Shown: piece after piece, positions 4,820-60,835 of the stretch
Layout of the letters: every line of letters starts with the position of its first letter
How positions within the stretch are numbered: the stretch's first letter is position 1
Source of the DNA: Alphaproteobacteria bacterium
GTDB taxonomy: Bacteria; Pseudomonadota; Alphaproteobacteria; UBA828
DNA: 64,000 nt
NCBI GenBank assembly: GCA_011523425.1
Contig: WTGU01000152.1
Coordinates: 1-64,000 of the forward strand
Direction of reading: 5' to 3'
Notes under the pieces: generated by a model
What the model was told of the DNA's origin: nothing
Database searches by the model: none
The model's input: the letters and a program-made list of their open reading frames with translations, nothing else
Position numbers and translations under genes: made by a program

Positions 4820-4932
4820 ATTATTTCGCTCACGGCAGCCGGCCTCCGACCGGCGCCTCCGCGAGGGCGCCGCATAAGCGGCGAGCCGCAGTCGCGGCCT
4901 GTCGCGTATCCGTCAGAGACGAATACGCTCTA
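4820..4932 (-). repeat. Dispersed convergent-end repeat, copy 1
   Basis: About 113 bp sharing the core of the copies at 21.3, 25.6, 45.6 and 60.8 kb, read on the minus strand. It contains an end hairpin of GCGTAT-type arms, the GCGACAGGCCGCG block and a GCCGGC-rich palindrome ending near CGTGAGCGAAA. It fills the gap between the convergent SDR (+) and flavin reductase (-), and its CTA at 4930-4932 is the TAG stop of the reductase. Its position and palindromes suggest a bidirectional transcription end, which is an inference. Confidence 0.75.
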
Positions 4933-47988: not shown

Positions 47989-48251
47989 CGGAATTGGCCT
48001 GGCGTGGAGCGCGTGTCGTGCACCGAGGAGCCTCGCTGGATCTTGATGTCGGGTGGTCTCTACGCCGGTCAGCCACGTGTTCGTCAACGCTCACCCTGTA
48101 TAGTAACGTGCGGTCTCGAACACAATCATCCGACCGCCGGTCTCGTCGTCGGCCACACGCAGATGAGGATCGTAACCGCGTCCGCACGGCCGGCGCGCGC
48201 GCACCATGTCGAGGGGCTCGACGCGGCCACCGGCAACAGAGAGACGACAAG

Positions 48252-49541
48252 ATGGGAAAGAAGATCGCGGTGTTCCCCGAGCCCGGCGCGATCGGCCCGG
48301 TGATGAATCTGGTCGGCATCTGCCAGGGCCTGCGCGACATGGGTCACGAGCCCGTCTTCGTGCTCGAGCCCGGCCTCAAGGGCAGCGTCGAGAGCTATGG
48401 CTTCGAGGAGCGCTACGTGTCCTGCATGGAGCCGATGAGTCCCGAGGAGCAGGCGACCTACTGGGACGACTTCATGATCCGCTACATGCCGACCTTCAGG
48501 ACCTCGGCCTACGACCAGATCGCCACCTACGTGAAGGGCTGCTGGGAGGCGATCATCTACACCTCCGAATGGTCGGTGAAGAACGGGCTCGACAGGGTCT
48601 TCGCCGAGATCGAACCCGACCTGATCGTCAACGACAACGTCGCGCTCTACCCCGCCACGCAGCAGGCGGGCTGCCCGTGGGCACGCATGATTTCGTGCTC
48701 CGAGAACGAGATCATCGATCCCGACATCCCGCCCCATCTATCGGGTTGCGGCGAGAACGACACGGCGTGTTTCGCGGCCTACCGGGCGGAGTTCGAGAAG
48801 GAGCTGAAGCCTGTCCATGACGGGTTCAACGACTTTCTCGAAGCCCAGGGATGCGACCGTCTGCCCTTCCCGGAGTTCGTGCTGCCCTCGCCCTATCTCA
48901 ACCTGCTGCTCTATCCCGAGCCGCTGCGCTTCAAGCGGCGGAACCCTCTCGATCCCCATAAGTTCGTCTATCTCGACGGCTGCGTGCGCGAGGAGAGCGA
49001 GGCGTACGAGGTGCCGACCTTCAAGGCGAACGACGACAAGCCCCTGATCTATTTCAGCTACGGCAGCCTCGGCGTCGCCGACGTCGATCTCATCAAGCGC
49101 ATCGTCGGCGTGCTCGCCGACGCGCCCTATCGGGTGCTGGTCAATGTCGGGGACTATCTGGCGCAGTACGAGACGCCGCCGGACAATGTGCAGATCGCGT
49201 CCTGGTACCGGCAGACCGCGGTGCTGCCCCATGTCGACGTCTTCATCCAGCATGGCGGCAACAACAGCTTCAACGAGAGCCTCTATTTCGGCATTCCGCC
49301 CATCGTGATGCCCTTCGTCTGGGACGGTCACGACAATGCCCGGCGGGTCAACGACACCAGGCACGGCATCGGGATGCACCGCTACGACTGGACCGACGCG
49401 GAGCTTCTGACGAACATCGAGAGGACGCTGACCGACCGGGAGATGCGCGCCAACGTCGCGGCGACGAGCAAGCACATGCAGGCGCAAAACGGCCGCATGC
49501 GCGCCGCCAACGCCATCAACGAACTGCTGGAGCGCCTCTAG
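48252..49541 (+). CDS. UGT-like GT1-family glycosyltransferase, paralogue A
   Basis: A 429-residue GT-B glycosyltransferase resembling MurG/UGT-type enzymes. The donor-site block is QHGGNNSFNESLYFGIPPIV then PFVWDGHDNARRV near residue 335, and the N-terminal acceptor lobe begins KKIAVFPEPGAIGPVMNLVG. It shares the segment SCSENEIIDPDIPPHLSGCGEND with paralogue B. The acceptor is unknown. The divergent region 47989-48251 holds only a weak -10-like TATAGT (48099-48104). A cupin gene follows by 2 bp. Confidence 0.82.
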   Translation: MGKKIAVFPEPGAIGPVMNLVGICQGLRDMGHEPVFVLEPGLKGSVESYGFEERYVSCMEPMSPEEQATYWDDFMIRYMPTFRTSAYDQIATYVKGCWEAIIYTSEWSVKNGLDRVFAEIEPDLIVNDNVALYPATQQAGCPWARMISCSENEIIDPDIPPHLSGCGENDTACFAAYRAEFEKELKPVHDGFNDFLEAQGCDRLPFPEFVLPSPYLNLLLYPEPLRFKRRNPLDPHKFVYLDGCVREESEAYEVPTFKANDDKPLIYFSYGSLGVADVDLIKRIVGVLADAPYRVLVNVGDYLAQYETPPDNVQIASWYRQTAVLPHVDVFIQHGGNNSFNESLYFGIPPIVMPFVWDGHDNARRVNDTRHGIGMHRYDWTDAELLTNIERTLTDREMRANVAATSKHMQAQNGRMRAANAINELLERL

Positions 49542-49921: not shown

Positions 49922-51205
49922 CTACGCGCGAGTCGCGAGGTCGATCAGGATGTCGGCCGCCTTCGCGCGGCCATCCTGCTGTTGCATATGGGCGCTGAGC
50001 GTCGCGAGGCGCCGCTGCATGGCCTCGTCGCTCAACAGCCGCGCGACGGTGCCGGCGAACGCCTCGTCGGTCCAGTCGTAGCGATGCAGTTGCGCTCCGT
50101 AGCCGGTGTCCTCGATCCGCTGGGCGTTGTCATGGCCGTCCCAGACGAACGGCATGATGATCGCGGGTTTGCCGAAATAGAGGCCTTCGTTGAAGGAGTT
50201 GTTGCCGCCGTGGTGAATGACGAGGTCGACCTGCGGAATCACCGACGGCTGCGGGAACCAGGGCGCGACCTGCACGTTGCCCGGCAGATCCGGGTACGCG
50301 GCCACTCGCTCGCCGACGCTGAGGAGCGCCCGATAGGGCAGTGTGCCGATCACCTCGATCAGGCGCTTGTTCAGCGCGACATCGGCCTCGTTCAAGCTGC
50401 CGGAGCCGATGTAGATGAGCGGCTTGTCGGCGTTCTTCGAGAACGTGGGCAGCGTGAAGGGCTCGTCCTCGCGCACGCAGCCCTCGAGATACTGAAACCG
50501 GGCGGGATCGAGGGGAGTGCGGCGCTTGAACTGAAGCTGCCTGGGGTACAGCAGGAAGTTCATGGTCGGCGAGGTCTCGAGAAACTGGCCGAGCGGGTAG
50601 GGCGCCTCGCCACACGATTCGAGGAAGGCGTTGAAGCGGTCGTGCACCGGCTTGATGACCTCCGAGAACCGCGTCCGGAACGCCTCGAAGCACGCCTTGT
50701 CGTTCTCGCCGCAGCCTGACAGATGGGGCGGAATGTCCGGATCGACAATCTCGTTCTCGGAGCAGGAGACGATGCGAACCCACGGGCAGCCCGCCCGCTT
50801 GATCGCGGGAAAGAGGATCACGTTGTCGAGGCAGACGAGGTCGGGCTCGATCTCGCCCAGCGCGAGCGCCAGTTCGTCCTCCACGTAGACCGCCGTGTCG
50901 ACGATGGCGCTCCAGCATTCGAGGACGTAGTTGGGAATCTGCTCGATCGGCGACAGCCGGAAGTTGGGCAGGTGGGACGCGATGAAGTCGAGCCAGTACT
51001 GGCTGGCGGCGGCCTCGTCCATCGGCTCCGACATGGCGACCAGGCGCTCGGGAAATCCGAAGCGATCGAAGACGCCCTTGAACGAGCTGTCCACGACGAA
51101 GACCGCATTGTGGCCGCGTTCGCGCAGCCGCTGAGCGATGCCAACGCAATTCATGGAGGGCCCGAAGGCCGCCTCCGGAAAGAACACTATGGTCTTCGCG
51201 TCCAT
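49922..51205 (-). CDS. UGT-like GT1-family glycosyltransferase, paralogue B
   Basis: A 427-residue paralogue of the enzyme at 48252, on the opposite strand and facing it. Same donor block: HHGGNNSFNEGLYFGKPAII, PFVWDGHDNAQRI, and the same middle segment SCSENEIVDPDIPPHLSGCGEND. The start ATG at 51205 follows GAGGGGCGCGGCG. The shared conserved segments between A and B show a duplication with inversion. Upstream at 51245-51305 is a repeat end with nested hairpins. Confidence 0.82.
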   Translation of the reverse strand: MDAKTIVFFPEAAFGPSMNCVGIAQRLRERGHNAVFVVDSSFKGVFDRFGFPERLVAMSEPMDEAAASQYWLDFIASHLPNFRLSPIEQIPNYVLECWSAIVDTAVYVEDELALALGEIEPDLVCLDNVILFPAIKRAGCPWVRIVSCSENEIVDPDIPPHLSGCGENDKACFEAFRTRFSEVIKPVHDRFNAFLESCGEAPYPLGQFLETSPTMNFLLYPRQLQFKRRTPLDPARFQYLEGCVREDEPFTLPTFSKNADKPLIYIGSGSLNEADVALNKRLIEVIGTLPYRALLSVGERVAAYPDLPGNVQVAPWFPQPSVIPQVDLVIHHGGNNSFNEGLYFGKPAIIMPFVWDGHDNAQRIEDTGYGAQLHRYDWTDEAFAGTVARLLSDEAMQRRLATLSAHMQQQDGRAKAADILIDLATRA

Positions 51206-53607: not shown

Positions 53608-54036
53608 TTAGCGGTGAACGTCCTCGCTCTCGCCGAGCGCGCGAAAGCCGCCGCGGATGAACACCAGGAGCGTGGCACCGTCTTCCGAGACGGAGACGTG
53701 CTTCGAGCCGGGCTTCAGCGAGACGAAGTCGTCGCGCCGGTAGACCGTGCCGTCGCAATCGGTCAGCGACCCGTGGAGCACCAGGAACTCCTCGTGGCCG
53801 ATATGCTCGTGGGGCGTCGAGCCGGCCCCGGGCGCAAAGCGGACCAGGTAGCAGCCTTCGCCCGCGTCCGCGTCGTAGCTGATGTTGCAGTAGGTGGCGG
53901 TAGGGCAGACTGGCTGCTCCGCGTCCGCCGCGCGTTTCATGCGATGGGGCGGCTCGGCCCCGAAGGCCGCGGTCTCGACGTTCACGATCGTGCGATAGGA
54001 CGCGAGCGACGCGTCCCTCCGGGCCGTCTCCTGCAC
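53608..54036 (-). CDS. Cupin-domain protein (H-x-H type), operon end
   Basis: A 142-residue cupin_2-type protein. The metal motif is TPHEHIGHEEFLVLHGSL with downstream Gly and His in DDFVSLKPGSKHVSV. It is a close paralogue of the next gene, 9 bp away, and both share GSKH and VFIRGGF. Such small cupins often bind metals or act as dioxygenase-like or epimerase enzymes. It is the last gene in the six-gene minus-strand unit. Confidence 0.85.
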   Translation of the reverse strand: MQETARRDASLASYRTIVNVETAAFGAEPPHRMKRAADAEQPVCPTATYCNISYDADAGEGCYLVRFAPGAGSTPHEHIGHEEFLVLHGSLTDCDGTVYRRDDFVSLKPGSKHVSVSEDGATLLVFIRGGFRALGESEDVHR

Positions 54037-54045
54037 GGCTAACGC

Positions 54046-54429
54046 TCAGCCATCGACCGGCTCGTCCTGTTCCAGCGTGCGGAAGCCGCCGCGGATGAAG
54101 ACCGCGACCGTGCAGCCGGTGTGCGAGACCGAGAAGTGCTTGGAGCCGGGCTTGAGGGACACGAGGTCGTTCTTCCTGTAAATCGCGCCGTCGCAGTCCT
54201 CGATCTCGCCGTCGAGAACCAGGAACTCCTCGTAGCCGACATGCTCGTGAGGGATCGAGGTTCCGCCGGGCTTGAAGCGAATCAGGAAGCAGCCGCCGCC
54301 CTCCGCCTCGTCGTAGCTGACATTGCACCAGGTCAGGTCGGACTGCTCCGAGCCTTGCAACCCGTACGGAACGAACTCCGCCGTGTCGAGGTTGACCATG
54401 CGCCGTTGTGATTCGAGCGTTGTCGACAT
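54046..54429 (-). CDS. Cupin-domain protein (H-x-H type), paralogue
   Basis: A 127-residue cupin from ATG 54429 (AAGGCGAGACA upstream). Metal motif IPHEHVGYEEFLVLDGEIE and NDLVSLKPGSKHFSV. It resembles the 53608 gene throughout and arose by tandem duplication. The two start 390 bp apart with minimal spacing and are probably translated together. Its role in amine metabolism is unproven. Confidence 0.85.
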   Translation of the reverse strand: MSTTLESQRRMVNLDTAEFVPYGLQGSEQSDLTWCNVSYDEAEGGGCFLIRFKPGGTSIPHEHVGYEEFLVLDGEIEDCDGAIYRKNDLVSLKPGSKHFSVSHTGCTVAVFIRGGFRTLEQDEPVDG

Positions 54430-54559
54430 TGTCTCGCCTTCCCGTAATCGGCCCACGCACGGAAGCAGGGCGCGCCGTCACTCGCCGCGATCAGCTTACG
54501 CCGGCGCCGGACTCAGCGGCAAGACTCCGCCGTCCCTTGCGCCCGGATGCACGCTTGCG

Positions 54560-55462
54560 TCAGTGCTTGCTCGGCTCGCCGAGCGTCGCCGTCTTGAAGA
54601 CGTAGGTATCGTCGACATACTCGCCGCCTTCGGACGCAGCCGGCATGACGTCGCTGTAGCGATCCTCCAGCACGACATGAGGGCTGTGCCCCTCGACCCA
54701 TCCCAGGAAGAAGTCGTGCAGGTGATAGCCGATCAAGTGCTGCACGTCCTCGCGCAGGGTCTTCGCGACGGCCGGCGGGACCGCCAGATACTGGTTCTCC
54801 TCCTGGCGCAGCCATCCCAGGCTGTAGCCGGTGATCGCGCCGGTGCGCCACTCGTCCTCGGTATTGTTCCGGCCCCCGCCGTGATAGACCGAGCCCAGGT
54901 AGATCAGGCACGAGCCGCGCGGCATGACGGCGTAGGCCCGAGGCGTATCGTCGTCGGGGTAGGTGTCGTCGTCCCAGACGTGGCTGCCGAGAACCACGTT
55001 GGTGGCGCCGTTCTCGTAGGTGAAGTCGGTGAGCGCCCACATCGTGTTGCAGAGGCACTGCGGCCCGGGGTGGCGGAAGGGCATCAGGGCGTCGTCCCGG
55101 TGGATGATCTGCAGTCCCTGGCCGGGGGCGATCCGCACCGCCTGGGTGACGTGAAGGTGATAGCGCTCGCAGCGCGGCAGCAGCAGGCGATCCATCACGC
55201 CGAGGATCTGCGGGCACGCGGCGAGCTCCTCGCCGTAGGTCCTCGACTTCGCGACCAGGGAACTGACCCGCTTCGTCTTGTCGCCCCAGAACTCCCCCTC
55301 GCCGAAGTAGGCGCGCGACATGAAGGGCTCGAGCTCCGCGTTGACCCGGTCGACCACCTCGTCGTCGACGACCTGGCGGTAGATGACGGCACCGTCCTCC
55401 TCGAGGATCGCCATCGCTTCGTCGACCGACGCATGACGGTCGATTGAACGCACCGTGTCCAT
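54560..55462 (-). CDS. Phytanoyl-CoA dioxygenase (PhyH) family Fe(II)/2OG oxygenase, paralogue
   Basis: A 300-residue PhyH protein. The iron triad is H-x-D in IIHRDDALMPF and the distal His in SVYHGGGRNNT, with the Arg in DEWRTGA. It differs clearly from the PhyH at 38521, though both lie in amine-enzyme operons. GGAGGAGCAC precedes the ATG. It follows the TMADH-like gene by 66 bp, in which a degenerate repeat end lies. Confidence 0.83.
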   Translation of the reverse strand: MDTVRSIDRHASVDEAMAILEEDGAVIYRQVVDDEVVDRVNAELEPFMSRAYFGEGEFWGDKTKRVSSLVAKSRTYGEELAACPQILGVMDRLLLPRCERYHLHVTQAVRIAPGQGLQIIHRDDALMPFRHPGPQCLCNTMWALTDFTYENGATNVVLGSHVWDDDTYPDDDTPRAYAVMPRGSCLIYLGSVYHGGGRNNTEDEWRTGAITGYSLGWLRQEENQYLAVPPAVAKTLREDVQHLIGYHLHDFFLGWVEGHSPHVVLEDRYSDVMPAASEGGEYVDDTYVFKTATLGEPSKH

Positions 55463-55528: not shown

Positions 55529-57607
55529 TCAGGCGATGGCGCGCTCCAGTTGCACGTACTCCACCTTGTAGGGCACGTCGGCGACGGCGCCCGCGTCGAG
55601 CTCGCGGGCGAAGCGATGGCCCTCGTAGACCGCATGCTGGATCGTGCCGGCGGCGACGCAGTCGCCGATGCGCGCGAGCGTCGCGATGCCGGCCTGCTCC
55701 AGCTTCTCCGGCTCCGCCGCAAGCTCCCGGTAGAGCGCGTCGTTCGGCAGGCGCGAGGTGGCGAGCACGAGCGACTGATAGCCGAGATGCCGCCGCTTCT
55801 CCTCGTGATAGACGTTGTAGACCTCGATGCTGTTGTCGCCGATGTGGGCGATGTTGTGGTCGGTAATCAGCTCGATCCCCATGGAGAGGACCCGGCTCAT
55901 GATCTTCTCCATCTCGAGGGTATATTCCGACCAGCGCGAGAGCTCCATCAGCGGCGTGACGATGGTCACCTCGTGACCCGCGGCCCGGAGCTTCTCGGCG
56001 ATGACGCCGCCCATGTAGTAGTGATCGTCGTCGAACACCACGACCGGGCCTTCGAGCGCCTTCCCGTCCATCACGTCGTCCGGGGTGAAGACCTTCGTGC
56101 CGTCGCTCCCGGGGATGGCGTGGGCGTTGGTGTAGGCGACGCCGTCGCCGCGCCAGTGCGAGCCCGTCGCGATCACCACGGTCTCGGCGCCGTAGTCGAG
56201 CACGTCCTGCGCCGAGAGGCGCGCGCCCGTGTGCATCTCGCCGTTCTTCATCTTGGCAAGCTGGCCGACGCGGTAATCGCGCACGCGCCCCCACGCGGCG
56301 AGGCCCGGCAGCGCGCTCTCGCGTGACACGCGGCCGCCGACGTCCGCCTCCGCCTCGACGAGGTGAACCGTGTAGCCCCGCTGCCCGAGCGCCCGCGCGC
56401 ACTCCAGACCCGCCGGGCCGGCGCCGACGACGAGCACGCCGCTCTCCGATCCCTTCGCCTCGATCGTCTCCGGGTGCCAGCCGCGCCGCCACTCCTCGCC
56501 CGCGGTCGGGTTCTGCGTGCAGCGGAACAGGCTCACCGTGTTCTCCGAGGCCACGCACATGTTGCAGCCGATGCATTCGCGGATGTCGTCGTTCCGTCCC
56601 TCTTCGATCTTCCTGGGCAGGAAGGGATCGGCGATCGAGGGCCGCGCCGCGCCGATGAAGTCGGTGATGCCGCGATCGATCTGGGAGATCATCGTGTCCG
56701 GCGAGGTGTAGCGCCCCACCGTCACGACCGGCCTGTCGGTCTTCTGCTTGACGAAGGCGACGTAGGGCTCCTGGAAGGCCTCGTCGGTGAATCGCGACGT
56801 GGCGGAATCGTAGGCCCAGTCGCTGATGTTCACGTCCCAGAGGTCGGGCAGGTCGGAGAACATCTCGACCACCGCCTGGCCTTCCTCCTGCCAGGTGATG
56901 CCGTGCTCGCCCCGGTTCTCGTCGACCGCGAGCCTGAGCGCCACCGCAGCCCGGTCGCCGACCGCCTCCTTGGTGTCCTCCAGGAGCTCGCCGATCAGGC
57001 GGGCGCGGTTCTCGACGCTGCCGCCATACTCGTCGGTGCGGTGATTGGTGTGGGGGGAGAGGAAGTGCTGCGGCAGGGCGATGTCGTGTGCGGCATAGAC
57101 GTAGACGATGTCGTAGCCCACGTTGACAGCGCGCTTCGCCGCCTCGACCTGCCAGCGCCGGAACTCGCGGATGTCGGCCTTGTCCATCTCGCGGCCCATG
57201 ATCGGGTCCCAGTTGTAGTGCACCATGTTGGGCGAAGGCCCGAGCGGAAACTCCTTCGTCTTGCGGTTGGAGAAACCGAGCCCGTTGTGCACCAGCTCGA
57301 CGGCCGCAAGGGCACCGTATTCGTGCATGGTGTCCACCCAGCCGCGTAGCTGCTCCGCGTACTCGTCGTTCCACAGCCGGCGCTCGCCGTAGGGCGCGGC
57401 GCAGGAGCTCGGGTGGATGCTGCATTGCTCGGTGCAGATGACGGCCCAGCCGCCTTCGGCCTTCATGCGCCGATGCGCGACGTCGCCGTGGTGCTCGCCG
57501 TAGCCCATCGCGTTGCAGTGGGGCACCTGATAGAAGCGATTCTTGGCGATCTTCGGGCCGATCTTGATCGGCGTGAACAGGGTATCGTAACGGGGATCGC
57601 GGGCCAT
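55529..57607 (-). CDS. Trimethylamine/dimethylamine-dehydrogenase-like flavin/4Fe-4S amine dehydrogenase, paralogue P2
   Basis: A 692-residue family member. Cys31 (YQVPHC) is the FMN-linked Cys, YAAH holds the Tyr/His pair, and the cluster motif CIGCNMC...FRCTQN is intact. The Tyr60 position is Gln (CTEQCSI), the change I recall for dimethylamine dehydrogenase. The Trp264 loop is shortened by three residues (SDWAYD keeps Trp and Asp), and Trp355 is Glu (CVASEN). So its pocket differs from both TMADH and P1. AGGGAGGCAACG precedes the ATG. Confidence 0.87.
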   Translation of the reverse strand: MARDPRYDTLFTPIKIGPKIAKNRFYQVPHCNAMGYGEHHGDVAHRRMKAEGGWAVICTEQCSIHPSSCAAPYGERRLWNDEYAEQLRGWVDTMHEYGALAAVELVHNGLGFSNRKTKEFPLGPSPNMVHYNWDPIMGREMDKADIREFRRWQVEAAKRAVNVGYDIVYVYAAHDIALPQHFLSPHTNHRTDEYGGSVENRARLIGELLEDTKEAVGDRAAVALRLAVDENRGEHGITWQEEGQAVVEMFSDLPDLWDVNISDWAYDSATSRFTDEAFQEPYVAFVKQKTDRPVVTVGRYTSPDTMISQIDRGITDFIGAARPSIADPFLPRKIEEGRNDDIRECIGCNMCVASENTVSLFRCTQNPTAGEEWRRGWHPETIEAKGSESGVLVVGAGPAGLECARALGQRGYTVHLVEAEADVGGRVSRESALPGLAAWGRVRDYRVGQLAKMKNGEMHTGARLSAQDVLDYGAETVVIATGSHWRGDGVAYTNAHAIPGSDGTKVFTPDDVMDGKALEGPVVVFDDDHYYMGGVIAEKLRAAGHEVTIVTPLMELSRWSEYTLEMEKIMSRVLSMGIELITDHNIAHIGDNSIEVYNVYHEEKRRHLGYQSLVLATSRLPNDALYRELAAEPEKLEQAGIATLARIGDCVAAGTIQHAVYEGHRFARELDAGAVADVPYKVEYVQLERAIA

Positions 57608-57751: not shown

Positions 57752-58132
57752 CTAGGCGGCGAGCTGCTCGGCGTCGGGATCGTGAATGAAGAACACCTTG
57801 CGGACGGTCTCCTCGATCACCCAGGTCACCGTCTCGCCCTTGTTCGTGTAGAAGATGTCGCCGGCGGTGTAGGTGTGGGTGGTGCCGTCCTGCTCGGTCA
57901 CGTGGATCCTGCCCTGAAGCAGGGTGCAGATCTCGTCACCCGGATAGGTGTACTCGAACTTGCCCGGCGTGCACTGCCACACGCCTGCCATCGTGCGCAT
58001 GCCGAAGCCGCCGAGATCGAAACGCCCCTCGTGCACCGGGTTGCCGTCGAGCACGTTCACGAACGGCAGCTCCTCCAGCGGCGGCCACGGCTCCAGGCCG
58101 CCCTCGTCCTTCAACGTCACATAATCGAGCAT
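57752..58132 (-). CDS. Cupin_3-type protein
   Basis: A 126-residue single cupin similar to the one at 49544: GVWQCTPGKFEYTYPGDEIC, LLQGRIHVTEQDGTTHTY and IEETVRKVFFIHD. No H-x-H metal pair, so a ligand-binding or regulatory cupin. GGAGAGAGAGC precedes the ATG. It is sandwiched between the two TMADH-like genes, gaps 144 and 93 bp, in the same transcription direction. Its conservation with a glycosyltransferase-linked cupin suggests shared ligand chemistry. Confidence 0.82.
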   Translation of the reverse strand: MLDYVTLKDEGGLEPWPPLEELPFVNVLDGNPVHEGRFDLGGFGMRTMAGVWQCTPGKFEYTYPGDEICTLLQGRIHVTEQDGTTHTYTAGDIFYTNKGETVTWVIEETVRKVFFIHDPDAEQLAA

Positions 58133-58225: not shown

Positions 58226-60403
58226 TCAGGCGACCCGCTTGGGAAACGTCTCGTGTCCCCAGACCTGGCGCTCGCGGATCCACGGCAGCGGCTGCTGCGG
58301 GTCCGCCGATTCGAACTCGCGCGCGAGCCGGTGGCCGTCGAAGATGGCGTTGGCGACGATGCGCGGGGCGTGGCAGTCGCCGACCCGGTAGACTGCCTGG
58401 ATGCCCTGCCCGGCCCATTCTGCGCTGCGCGCCTTGACCTCGCGGAACACCCCGTCGTTGCTGAGCCGTGCCGTGCACAGGACGACACTGTCGCACTCGA
58501 GCTCGGTTACCTCGGTGCCGGCCCGGCGCGAATACTCGCCCTTCATCGGCGTCAACGTACGAACGTAGCCGTCCCGATAAAGGTAGAAGATCGTAAGCTT
58601 AACTGCATTGCCGATCTCAAGTTTGTCCGCCCAGTGCAGCGTATGTTGCTTGATGTTCTTCTCGTGCAACATGCGGCGAATATCGTGAATCTCCTCGGTA
58701 TAGATGCAGTGTGACGCGACATTGTCGAAGCTGGTCACGATGGTGACGTCCTTGCCTTGATCGGCGAGCAGCTCCGCCATGCTCACCCCGGTGTAATAGC
58801 CCTCGTAGTCGAGCACGACGACCCGCTCGCCGGTCTCCTTGCCGGCCATGATCTGCTCAGGCGTGCTGATCTCCGGCAGCGCCGCGTCGGCACCGTCGAG
58901 CGGGGCCATGGTCACGCCGCCGAGGCCGTTCGTCGACCACCGTGCACCGGTGGCGAAGACCACCTTGTCGGCGCCGTACTCCAGAACGCTGGCGGCGCTC
59001 ATCTCGCCGACGCCCGTGTGCACCTCGACGTTCTTGAGCTTGTCCAGCTGGCCCTGCCTGTAGCTGATGACGCGGCCCCATTCGGCCAGATGGGGGTAGC
59101 GCATGATGTCGCGCATGCAGCCGCCGATCTCGTCCGTCGCCTCGCGCAGATGGACGTCGTAGCCCCGCTCCCCCAGCACGCGCGCGCACTCCATGCCGGC
59201 AGGCCCGGCGCCGACCACGAGGACCGAGCAGGGATCCTCCGCCGGCTCGAACTTCTCCGGGTGCCAGCCGCGCCGGTACTCCTCCATCGACGTGGCGTTC
59301 TGCGTGCAGATGAGGGGCGTCGTCTGCCACCACTTGGAGAGGCAGATGTTGCAGCCGATGCACTCGCGGATGTCGTCGGTCCGCCCCTCGTCGATCTTGT
59401 TGGGCAGGAAGGGGTCGGCGATGGAGGGCCGCGCCGCGCCGATGAGGTCGGCCTGCCCGGACTTGACGATCTGCACCATCTCGTCGGGGCTGGTGACGCG
59501 GCCGGCGCTGACCACGGGCACGCTGCATGCCTTCTTGGCTTCCCTGATCCACGGCGCCATGTAGTTGGAGGCCGTGGAGCGCGATGCCGCGATTTCCAGC
59601 GCGAGCTCCGAGTAGCGGCCGACCTTCATGTCCCAGACGTCGCACAGGCCCTCCCTCTCGTGCAGCTCGATGAAGCCGATGCCGTCTTCCCAGACCTCGA
59701 GGCCGTCCGCCCCGTCCATGGTGTCGACCGAGTAGCGATAGCCCACCGCGCAGTCGTCGCCGACGGCCTTCTTGGTCGCTTCCGCGATTTCCAGTGCAAA
59801 ACGCGCGCGGTTTTCGAGCGAGCCGCCGTACTTGTCCGTCCTCTTGTTGTAGTAGGGCTGGAGGAACTGATTCACGATCATCGAATCCGAAACCAGGTTC
59901 TCGATGATGTCGAAGCCCGCATCGCGTGCCCTGATCGCGGCGTCGACGTGCATCCGGATGACGGTCCGGATGTCGTCCTCGTCCATCTCGCTGGTGCTCG
60001 CCAGGGGAATCGCCTCCGACGGCATCTGGCTCGGTGCGCGGCTGATCGCGCGGGACTCGCCGCTCTGAGAGTGCAGGCCGGCGTAATAGAGCTCGACGCC
60101 GGCGAGCGCGCCGTGCGCGTGGATGCTGTCGGTGAAGTGCCGCAGGCTGATGACGTCGCCCTCGTCCCAGAGACGCGCGGACCAGTGCGGTGAATCGTCC
60201 GATTCCGGGTGGATCGCGGTGTACTCGATGAAGACGGTGCCCCAGCCGCCTTCGGCCTTCATGCCGCGAAAGGCGGCCTGGGTGCCGGGACGGTCCGAGC
60301 CTGCGCTGTTGCAATGGGGCGTCTGCCAGAACCGGTTCTTCGTTGTCTTTGGGCCGACCTTGACCGACTCAAACAGAATGTCGTGTTCCGGGTTTCGCGC
60401 CAT
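58226..60403 (-). CDS. TMADH-like flavin/4Fe-4S enzyme with altered active site, paralogue P3
   Basis: A 725-residue family member with FMN-linking Cys31 (RFWQTPHC), the cluster motif ([13 protein letters not shown]) and the Rossmann domain ([16 protein letters not shown]). The Tyr60 position is Tyr (FIEYTAI) and Trp355 is kept (SKWW), but the Tyr169-His172 pair reads Leu and Asp (DIIENLVSD), and Trp264/Asp267 read Leu and Glu (SELALE). So it is not a canonical TMADH. AGGGGGA precedes the ATG. It is the first gene of the minus-strand unit. Confidence 0.87.
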
Positions 60404-60646: not shown

Positions 60647-60781
60647 ATGGCGAACGCAGCATACGACGCGGTCATCGTCGGCGCGGGCCACAACGGGCTC
60701 GTCGCCGCCTTCTATCTCGCGCGTGCCGGGCGCTGGGTGCTGCTTTGCGAGCGCCGGCCCTGCGTCGGCGGCGCCGCATGA
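60647..60781 (+). pseudogene. Truncated FAD-dependent oxidoreductase (N-terminal 44 residues)
   Basis: The N-terminus of a phytoene-dehydrogenase-like or related flavoprotein: [20 protein letters not shown] (FAD loop), then [15 protein letters not shown] normal protein continues for about 450-500 residues, but a TGA follows within the dispersed repeat at once. A good SD (GGAAGGA) suggests it once was expressed. The rest of the gene is absent; the next ORF is the DMGDH-like gene. Confidence 0.75.
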
Positions 60782-60835
60782 GCGGCGGGCCGCGGTCGCG
60801 GCCTGTCGCGCATCCGTCGATACGAACGCGCTCGA
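60771..60835 (-). repeat. Dispersed convergent-end repeat, copy 5 (partial)
   Basis: On the minus strand it reads GAGCGCGTTCG...GCGACAGGCCGCGACCGCGGCCCGCCGCTCATGCGGCGCC (quoted in parts), then runs into the oxidoreductase codons. It lacks the GCCGGC part and the far hairpin. It ends the truncated gene at 60779-60781. Unlike the other four it does not lie between convergent genes. Confidence 0.7.

Follow-up and report, generated by a model that had tools for sequence, protein, structure and literature searches.

The gene named here P3 lies in a 64,000-nucleotide stretch of an alphaproteobacterial contig (the window, that is, the whole stretch of DNA that was analysed) and encodes an iron-sulphur flavoprotein of the trimethylamine dehydrogenase (TMADH) family in which pocket residues linked to amine oxidation are replaced. 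This raises the question of what such an enzyme does. An earlier interpretation, made from the letters of the DNA and referred to below as the sequence-only reading, had noted the replacements and proposed a changed chemistry on an intact set of cofactors. What Tyr169, His172 and Asp267 do in flavin amine oxidation has been learnt mainly from mutants of one enzyme, and a natural, selected lineage devoid of the Tyr and the His makes the need for this triad in the TMADH family directly testable.

P3 is a full-length TMADH-family protein

58226..60403, minus strand: P3, TMADH-family iron-sulphur flavoprotein of 725 amino acids; open reading frame with an ATG start and no internal stop

P3 comprises an Oxidored_FMN domain (PF00724), an OYE-like second alpha/beta domain (PF22620) and a Pyr_redox_2 domain (PF07992). 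Its best match in the PDB is TMADH (1djn, E value of 5e-224 over residues 2-721, phmmer), to which it aligns end to end with about 50% identity, and its AlphaFold2 model (mean pLDDT value of 88) gives a TM score of 0.95 to TMADH 2tmd. The architecture typical of the family, an Oxidored_FMN barrel with a 4Fe-4S cluster and ADP/NAD-like C-terminal domains over about 720 residues, is found in P3, as are Cys30 and the CxxCxxC...C motif of the cluster. P3 lacks the features of a histamine dehydrogenase (closest relationship to 3k30/6de6 and an acidic residue in the Trp355 column): it groups with TMADH and retains Trp355. The bilirubin reductase, BaiCD and mycofactocin OYE families were rejected, with scores far under their curated cut-offs. 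The genome to which P3 belongs (3.6 Mb) encodes at least six TMADH/histamine-dehydrogenase-type paralogues (L001-L006) with several different pocket types, and its paralogues L007, L008 and L011 display His/His at positions 169/172.

The substrate pocket is remodelled while cofactor sites are kept

In TMADH, Tyr60, Trp264 and Trp355 make up a cation-binding bowl, and Tyr169, His172 and Asp267 tune protonation and binding. TMADH mutants that lack the Tyr or the His still turn over slowly. At TMADH positions 30, 60, 105, 169, 172, 264, 267 and 355, P3 displays C, Y, Y, L, D, L, E and W, which correspond to C31, Y61, Y106, L170, D173, L267, E270 and W358 in its own numbering, with cluster cysteines at 348, 351, 354 and 366. 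The positions in the window are as follows.

60311..60313, minus strand: Cys31 codon (TMADH Cys30, the 6-S-cysteinyl FMN site), kept
60221..60223, minus strand: Tyr61 codon (TMADH Tyr60), kept
60086..60088, minus strand: Tyr106 codon (TMADH Trp105 to Tyr)
59894..59896, minus strand: Leu170 codon (TMADH Tyr169 to Leu)
59885..59887, minus strand: Asp173 codon (TMADH His172 to Asp), common to the entire 23-row clade described below
59603..59605, minus strand: Leu267 codon (TMADH Trp264 to Leu), P3 subclade only
59594..59596, minus strand: Glu270 codon (TMADH Asp267 to Glu), P3 subclade only
59306..59362, minus strand: 4Fe-4S cysteines C348, C351, C354 and C366, and W358 (TMADH Trp355), kept

All three triad positions are therefore occupied by other residues (Leu, Asp and Glu), the aromatic bowl is incomplete, with Leu in place of Trp264 and the other two residues kept, and both arginines checked (Arg222 and Arg322, TMADH numbering) are retained. 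The sequence-only reading had named Leu/Asp for Tyr169/His172 and Leu/Glu for Trp264/Asp267 correctly, and the alignment bears out the retention of Cys31, Tyr60 and the 4Fe-4S motif, hence of the cofactor set. Its list mixed two numbering schemes, Cys31 being that of P3 and the rest those of TMADH, and overlooked both Trp105Tyr and the retained Trp355. Mis-alignment as the source of the Tyr/His loss was rejected: the 169/172 region (TMADH FDIVYVYGAHSYLPLQFL against an 18-residue stretch of P3) and the 264/267 region are both gap-free, so that re-alignment cannot restore these residues. On the path from TMADH to its electron-transferring partner ETF, Val344 and Tyr442 are Glu and Arg in P3 and in close paralogues, even the canonical L002, which suggests a different ETF docking in the P3/L002 lineage.

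P3 belongs to a clade with Asp at position 172

Six full-length P3 orthologues from other genomes, 73-95% identical, all display the L(or I)/D/L/E set, so the P3 pattern is neither a sequencing error nor chance, and P3 as an oddity of one genome was rejected. In a wider group, Tyr169 is lost and Asp172 present with Trp264/Asp267 kept; its members include L003 of the same genome, several marine MAGs, Castellaniella defragrans, an Alcaligenaceae strain, Glaciimonas, Shinella PSBB067 and Mycolicibacterium sediminis. In a maximum-likelihood tree built with the seven pocket columns removed, all 23 rows with a hydrophobic residue or Ser at 169 and Asp at 172, P3 and its orthologues included, group together (bootstrap 100, SH-aLRT 98) in a single clade that is nested within the canonical enzymes and encompasses Alphaproteobacteria, Burkholderiales and a Mycolicibacterium. 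P3 is assigned to this x169/Asp172 clade by its Asp172, its non-Tyr residue at 169 and its monophyly with the other members when those columns are left out. Within it, P3 and the six orthologues (seven rows) form a 100/100 subclade in which Trp264 is also lost and Asp267 is replaced by Glu, thereby answering the question, raised by the sequence-only reading, of whether P3 stands in a clade of its own.

The tree shows descent from canonical Tyr-His-Asp enzymes to a well-supported clade in which Tyr169 became Leu, Ile, Val or Ser and His172 became Asp; within the order of P3, Trp264 was subsequently lost and Asp267 became Glu. Sister groups show each of these steps: canonical, x-Asp with Trp264/Asp267, and Leu-Asp-Leu-Glu. 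Gain of Asp172 and loss of Tyr169 each require two changes on the tree, and a Ferrovum protein (L074) reached Asp172 separately with Tyr169 kept. Other variants at 169/172/264/267 are Met/Ala/Trp/His (L060:4111-6357), His/Ala/Trp/Asp in Bosea (L067:7731-10187) and Tyr/Asp/Trp/Asn in the Ferrovum MAG (L074:10215-12434), the last beside a canonical copy.

The 22 genomes available for the order encode seven full-length P3-type proteins and one fragment, and 385 class-level genomes searched with the same threshold yielded none beyond the order; in the genomes searched, the subclade was thus seen only in its own order. An Asp172-type query against a phylum-wide sample of 399 genomes (E value of 1e-255) returned no new member outside the genome of P3. 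The literature searched yielded no paper on Asp172-type TMADH relatives, nor biochemical data for any Asp172 member.

P3 is under purifying selection and its changes cluster in the substrate half

Mean pairwise dN/dS values calculated over five genus-level orthologues are 0.079 for P3, 0.081 for its neighbour P2 (see below) and 0.075 for a canonical paralogue of the same genus. A pseudogene or relaxed selection was rejected, since the value for P3 is that of intact paralogues and its orthologues are open. The sequence-only reading, which held a pseudogene to be unlikely, had itself named a corrected alignment with Tyr/His and relaxed selection as grounds for doubt; both were looked for and neither was found. 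The fold, the covalent-FMN cysteine, the flavin-contact arginines, the 4Fe-4S ligands and the C-terminal domains are retained, and selection on P3 is purifying.

Positions were counted at which P3 has a fixed residue other than the one that at least 85% of canonical members share: 23 fall in residues 1-364 and 3 in residues 365-719 (Fisher p value of 0.0003), whereas the same test on a canonical control, the L002 group, gives 2 and 14. Change in P3 is concentrated in the substrate domain.

Gene neighbourhood of P3

60723-63365, divergent from P3: DAO-GCV_T (THF-type) demethylating flavoenzyme
57752..58132, minus strand: cupin A, Cupin_3, EutQ-like, 126 amino acids (PF05899, E value of 3e-22)
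55529..57607, minus strand: P2, second family member, histamine-dehydrogenase type (3k30, E value of 2e-217)
54560..55462, minus strand: PhyH-type Fe(II)/2-oxoglutarate dioxygenase (PF05721)
53608..54456, minus strand: two ChrR-type cupins (PF12973), end of the same-strand run

P3 heads its gene group, as had been supposed, being the first gene of a P3-cupin-P2 order conserved in G000, G001, G002, G005, G006 and G012; G018 displays the same group with a P3 fragment. Wherever the P3-P2 interval is assembled, it contains cupin A. P2 shares about 42% identity with P3 and has an intact Tyr169/His172/Trp264/Asp267 set with Glu in the Trp355 column. In four of the five genus genomes the next gene after P2 is that of the PhyH protein, and the stretches examined in relatives showed no ChrR-type cupins next to P3. 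The divergent DAO-GCV_T gene is likewise present in four of five (G000, G001, G005 and G006) and missing in G002. No ETF, aminotransferase or aldehyde dehydrogenase gene adjoins P3. A promoter and terminator scan gave zero promoter matches and terminator-like sites no commoner than chance.

A link of cupin A with P3 alone was considered and rejected, since dimethylamine-dehydrogenase-type genes of methylotrophs (L078, L079, L080, L083-L085, L116 and L119) also have a distant cupin, 29-34% identical to cupin A, beside them; a cupin may thus be a general accessory of the enzyme family.

The region around P3 is rich in amine and betaine-type genes. A third TMADH-type protein, P1 (39980-42154, plus strand), has an intact triad with Ala at position 60; a PhyH gene and two glutamine-synthetase-like genes precede it and Liv-type transporter genes follow. 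Two related macrolide-type (EryCIII/UGT-like) glycosyltransferase genes (47994-49541, plus strand; 49922-51205, minus strand) lie amid this amine-catabolism region together with a Cupin_3 gene. Between P3 and the DAO-GCV_T gene is the remnant of a PF01593 amine-oxidase-like gene (60647-60781, plus strand), which consists of the first 40-45 codons and then a TGA. The gene is intact beside P3 in three relatives (L044, L045 and L046) and, in the same genome, at C23, where it adjoins the Asp172 paralogue L003 (88% identical). A dispersed repeat of about 33 bp occurs at 60777-60809 and also at 4873, 21342, 25716 and 45636 of the window, and the genome has at least 59 near-copies of it, against none for a reversed control pattern. 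One exact copy begins at the truncation point of the amine-oxidase-like gene, which suggests a repeat-linked deletion.

Loci of the wider Asp172 clade

Neighbourhoods were counted for 11 non-P3 Asp172 loci and 47 canonical loci. The Asp172 loci being few, related and phylogenetically non-independent (L054 and L154 are the same record), the resulting pattern is a lead: DgcB-EtfB genes occur at 6/11 against 28/47, EtfA at 6/11 against 19/47, class III aminotransferases at 5/11 against 1/47, aldehyde dehydrogenases at 4/11 against 1/47 and GcvT at 0/11 against 19/47. We assign the name DgcB to the fused iron-sulphur protein on the basis of its domains and of the dimethylglycine (dgcAB) operon. 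Two of the aminotransferases score above the NCBIfam GABA-transaminase cut-off, the neighbours of L003 include a class III aminotransferase as well as ABC-transporter genes, and a transporter set assigned by eye as spermidine/putrescine-like is found at L055. A betaine epimerase role was considered for an enolase-superfamily neighbour of L101, but the PDB entries that match it best are of the Bll6730 type, so there is no proline-betaine link.

ETF is the electron acceptor of TMADH (PMC8097209), and Pno, a family relative with another amine substrate, passes electrons to EtfAB (PMC7688666). At C110, the genome of P3 has a gene for a DgcB-EtfB fusion (58% identical). The neighbours of the wider clade suggest an ETF-linked amine oxidation whose products would be aldehydes or amino acids and not C1 units, and suggest a bulkier or dicationic amine as a candidate substrate class.

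Function of P3

The proposal that P3 has changed or lost its amine chemistry goes too far. Tyr60, Trp355, Cys30, Arg222, Arg322 and the cluster are kept, Glu at 267 is still an acid, and Trp264 is a binding-bowl residue. The slow turnover of TMADH mutants means that loss of the Tyr or the His does not equal loss of amine oxidation, and wider-clade members with the same Tyr169/His172 loss are often found beside DgcB-EtfB/EtfA genes. With intact amine-dehydrogenase parts and a remodelled pocket, we favour, at a probability of about 60%, the view that P3 is a working TMADH-family member with a changed substrate, its pocket rebuilt on an intact amine-dehydrogenase chassis; it probably oxidises an amine other than the usual one.

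P3 might instead be an N-demethylase of a methylated amino acid or betaine-derived tertiary amine, of the dimethylglycine or N-methylproline type, acting with the neighbouring THF-dependent enzyme. The divergent DAO-GCV_T gene, also found in G001, G005 and G006, fits an N-methyl substrate equally well, and amine and betaine-type genes abound in the wider region. However, that linkage is missing in G002, GcvT is found in none of the 11 neighbourhoods of other Asp172 enzymes, and a carboxylate at 172 beside that at 267 would be a poor match for a substrate carboxylate, so that we consider this role unlikely. A different chemistry altogether, either reduction of an activated C=C bond as in enoate reductases or oxidation of a non-amine C-H or C-O bond, draws on the altered amine residues and on a fold superfamily that includes enoate and dienoyl-CoA reductases (PDB matches 1ps9 and 6qkg). 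Yet the carbonyl-polarising His/His, His/Asn or Tyr/His pair of these reductases is missing too (Leu/Asp in P3), and without the His-His/His-Asn pair at 169/172 the enoate activity that the sequence-only reading listed for testing is disfavoured. P3 moreover lies deep within the TMADH branch, far from the reductases, it keeps Cys30, Tyr60 and Trp355, and related Asp172 genes travel with ETF, all of which make a change of chemistry improbable.

A catalytically dead P3 assisting P2, for instance as heterodimer subunit or electron relay, would account for three non-conservative changes of canonical pocket residues and for the conserved order with an intact P2 downstream on the same strand. It is hard to reconcile with the retention of every cofactor ligand, with fixed changes that are specific and cluster in the substrate domain instead of being scattered, with the low identity of P3 to P2 and with a P2 and cupin pair found without an adjoining P3 (L030); we regard it as very improbable.

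If P3 is an amine dehydrogenase with a changed substrate, the Tyr-His-Asp triad would be replaced by a pair of carboxylates, at 172 and at 267, that faces a less aromatic pocket, widened by Trp264Leu, and that could share a proton or bind a second positive group. The substrate would then not be trimethylamine, and would probably be larger or carry a second positive group; candidates are a diamine, a polyamine, or a guanidino- or N-alkyl-diamine. FMN would oxidise the C-N bond of the amine, with electrons passing via the cluster to ETF and to a DgcB-type membrane module whose genes lie elsewhere in the genome, and P2 might oxidise a related primary amine or the product. A broader proposal, which we advance tentatively and with more doubt than confidence, is that the whole x169/Asp172 clade may be an amine dehydrogenase lineage in which the carboxylate pair replaces the triad for dicationic amines (polyamines and N-alkyl or guanidino relatives) and demethylation does not occur, P3 with Glu267 and Leu264 being its most remodelled, order-specific form. 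These proteins point to a candidate function in the catabolism of amines, both in Alphaproteobacteria that are uncultured and in Castellaniella and Mycolicibacterium, which are cultured.

Comparison with known systems

P3 shares with TMADH of Methylophilus W3A1 (1djn/2tmd) its full-length architecture and fold (TM score as above), Cys30, the 4Fe-4S cysteines, Tyr60 and Trp355, and differs from it by Tyr169Leu, His172Asp, Trp264Leu, Asp267Glu and Trp105Tyr and by Glu/Arg for Val344/Tyr442. Enzymes of the dimethylamine dehydrogenase type (Hyphomicrobium and Methylotenera members) resemble P3 in architecture, in the adjacent cupin gene and in their Tyr169/His172/Asp267 ancestors; unlike P3, they have Gln rather than Tyr at position 60 and an intact triad. 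Histamine dehydrogenase (3k30, 6de6) and 6-hydroxypseudooxynicotine dehydrogenase (6l6j) share the fold and family and provide a precedent for substrate change, EtfAB accepting electrons from Pno (PMC7688666). They are about 37-39% identical to P3 and keep Tyr169/His172/Asp267, and it is P2, not P3, that is of this type. The nearest relatives of P3 are the members of the x169/Asp172 clade, such as those of Castellaniella defragrans (L059), Alcaligenaceae CAII-56 (L104), Shinella PSBB067 (L147), Mycolicibacterium sediminis (L064) and the own-genome L003, which likewise have lost Tyr169 and replaced His172 by Asp. In contrast to P3, these relatives keep Trp264 and Asp267 and display Phe or Met at 355, and the Castellaniella, Alcaligenaceae and Shinella loci have DgcB-EtfB-EtfA genes next door.
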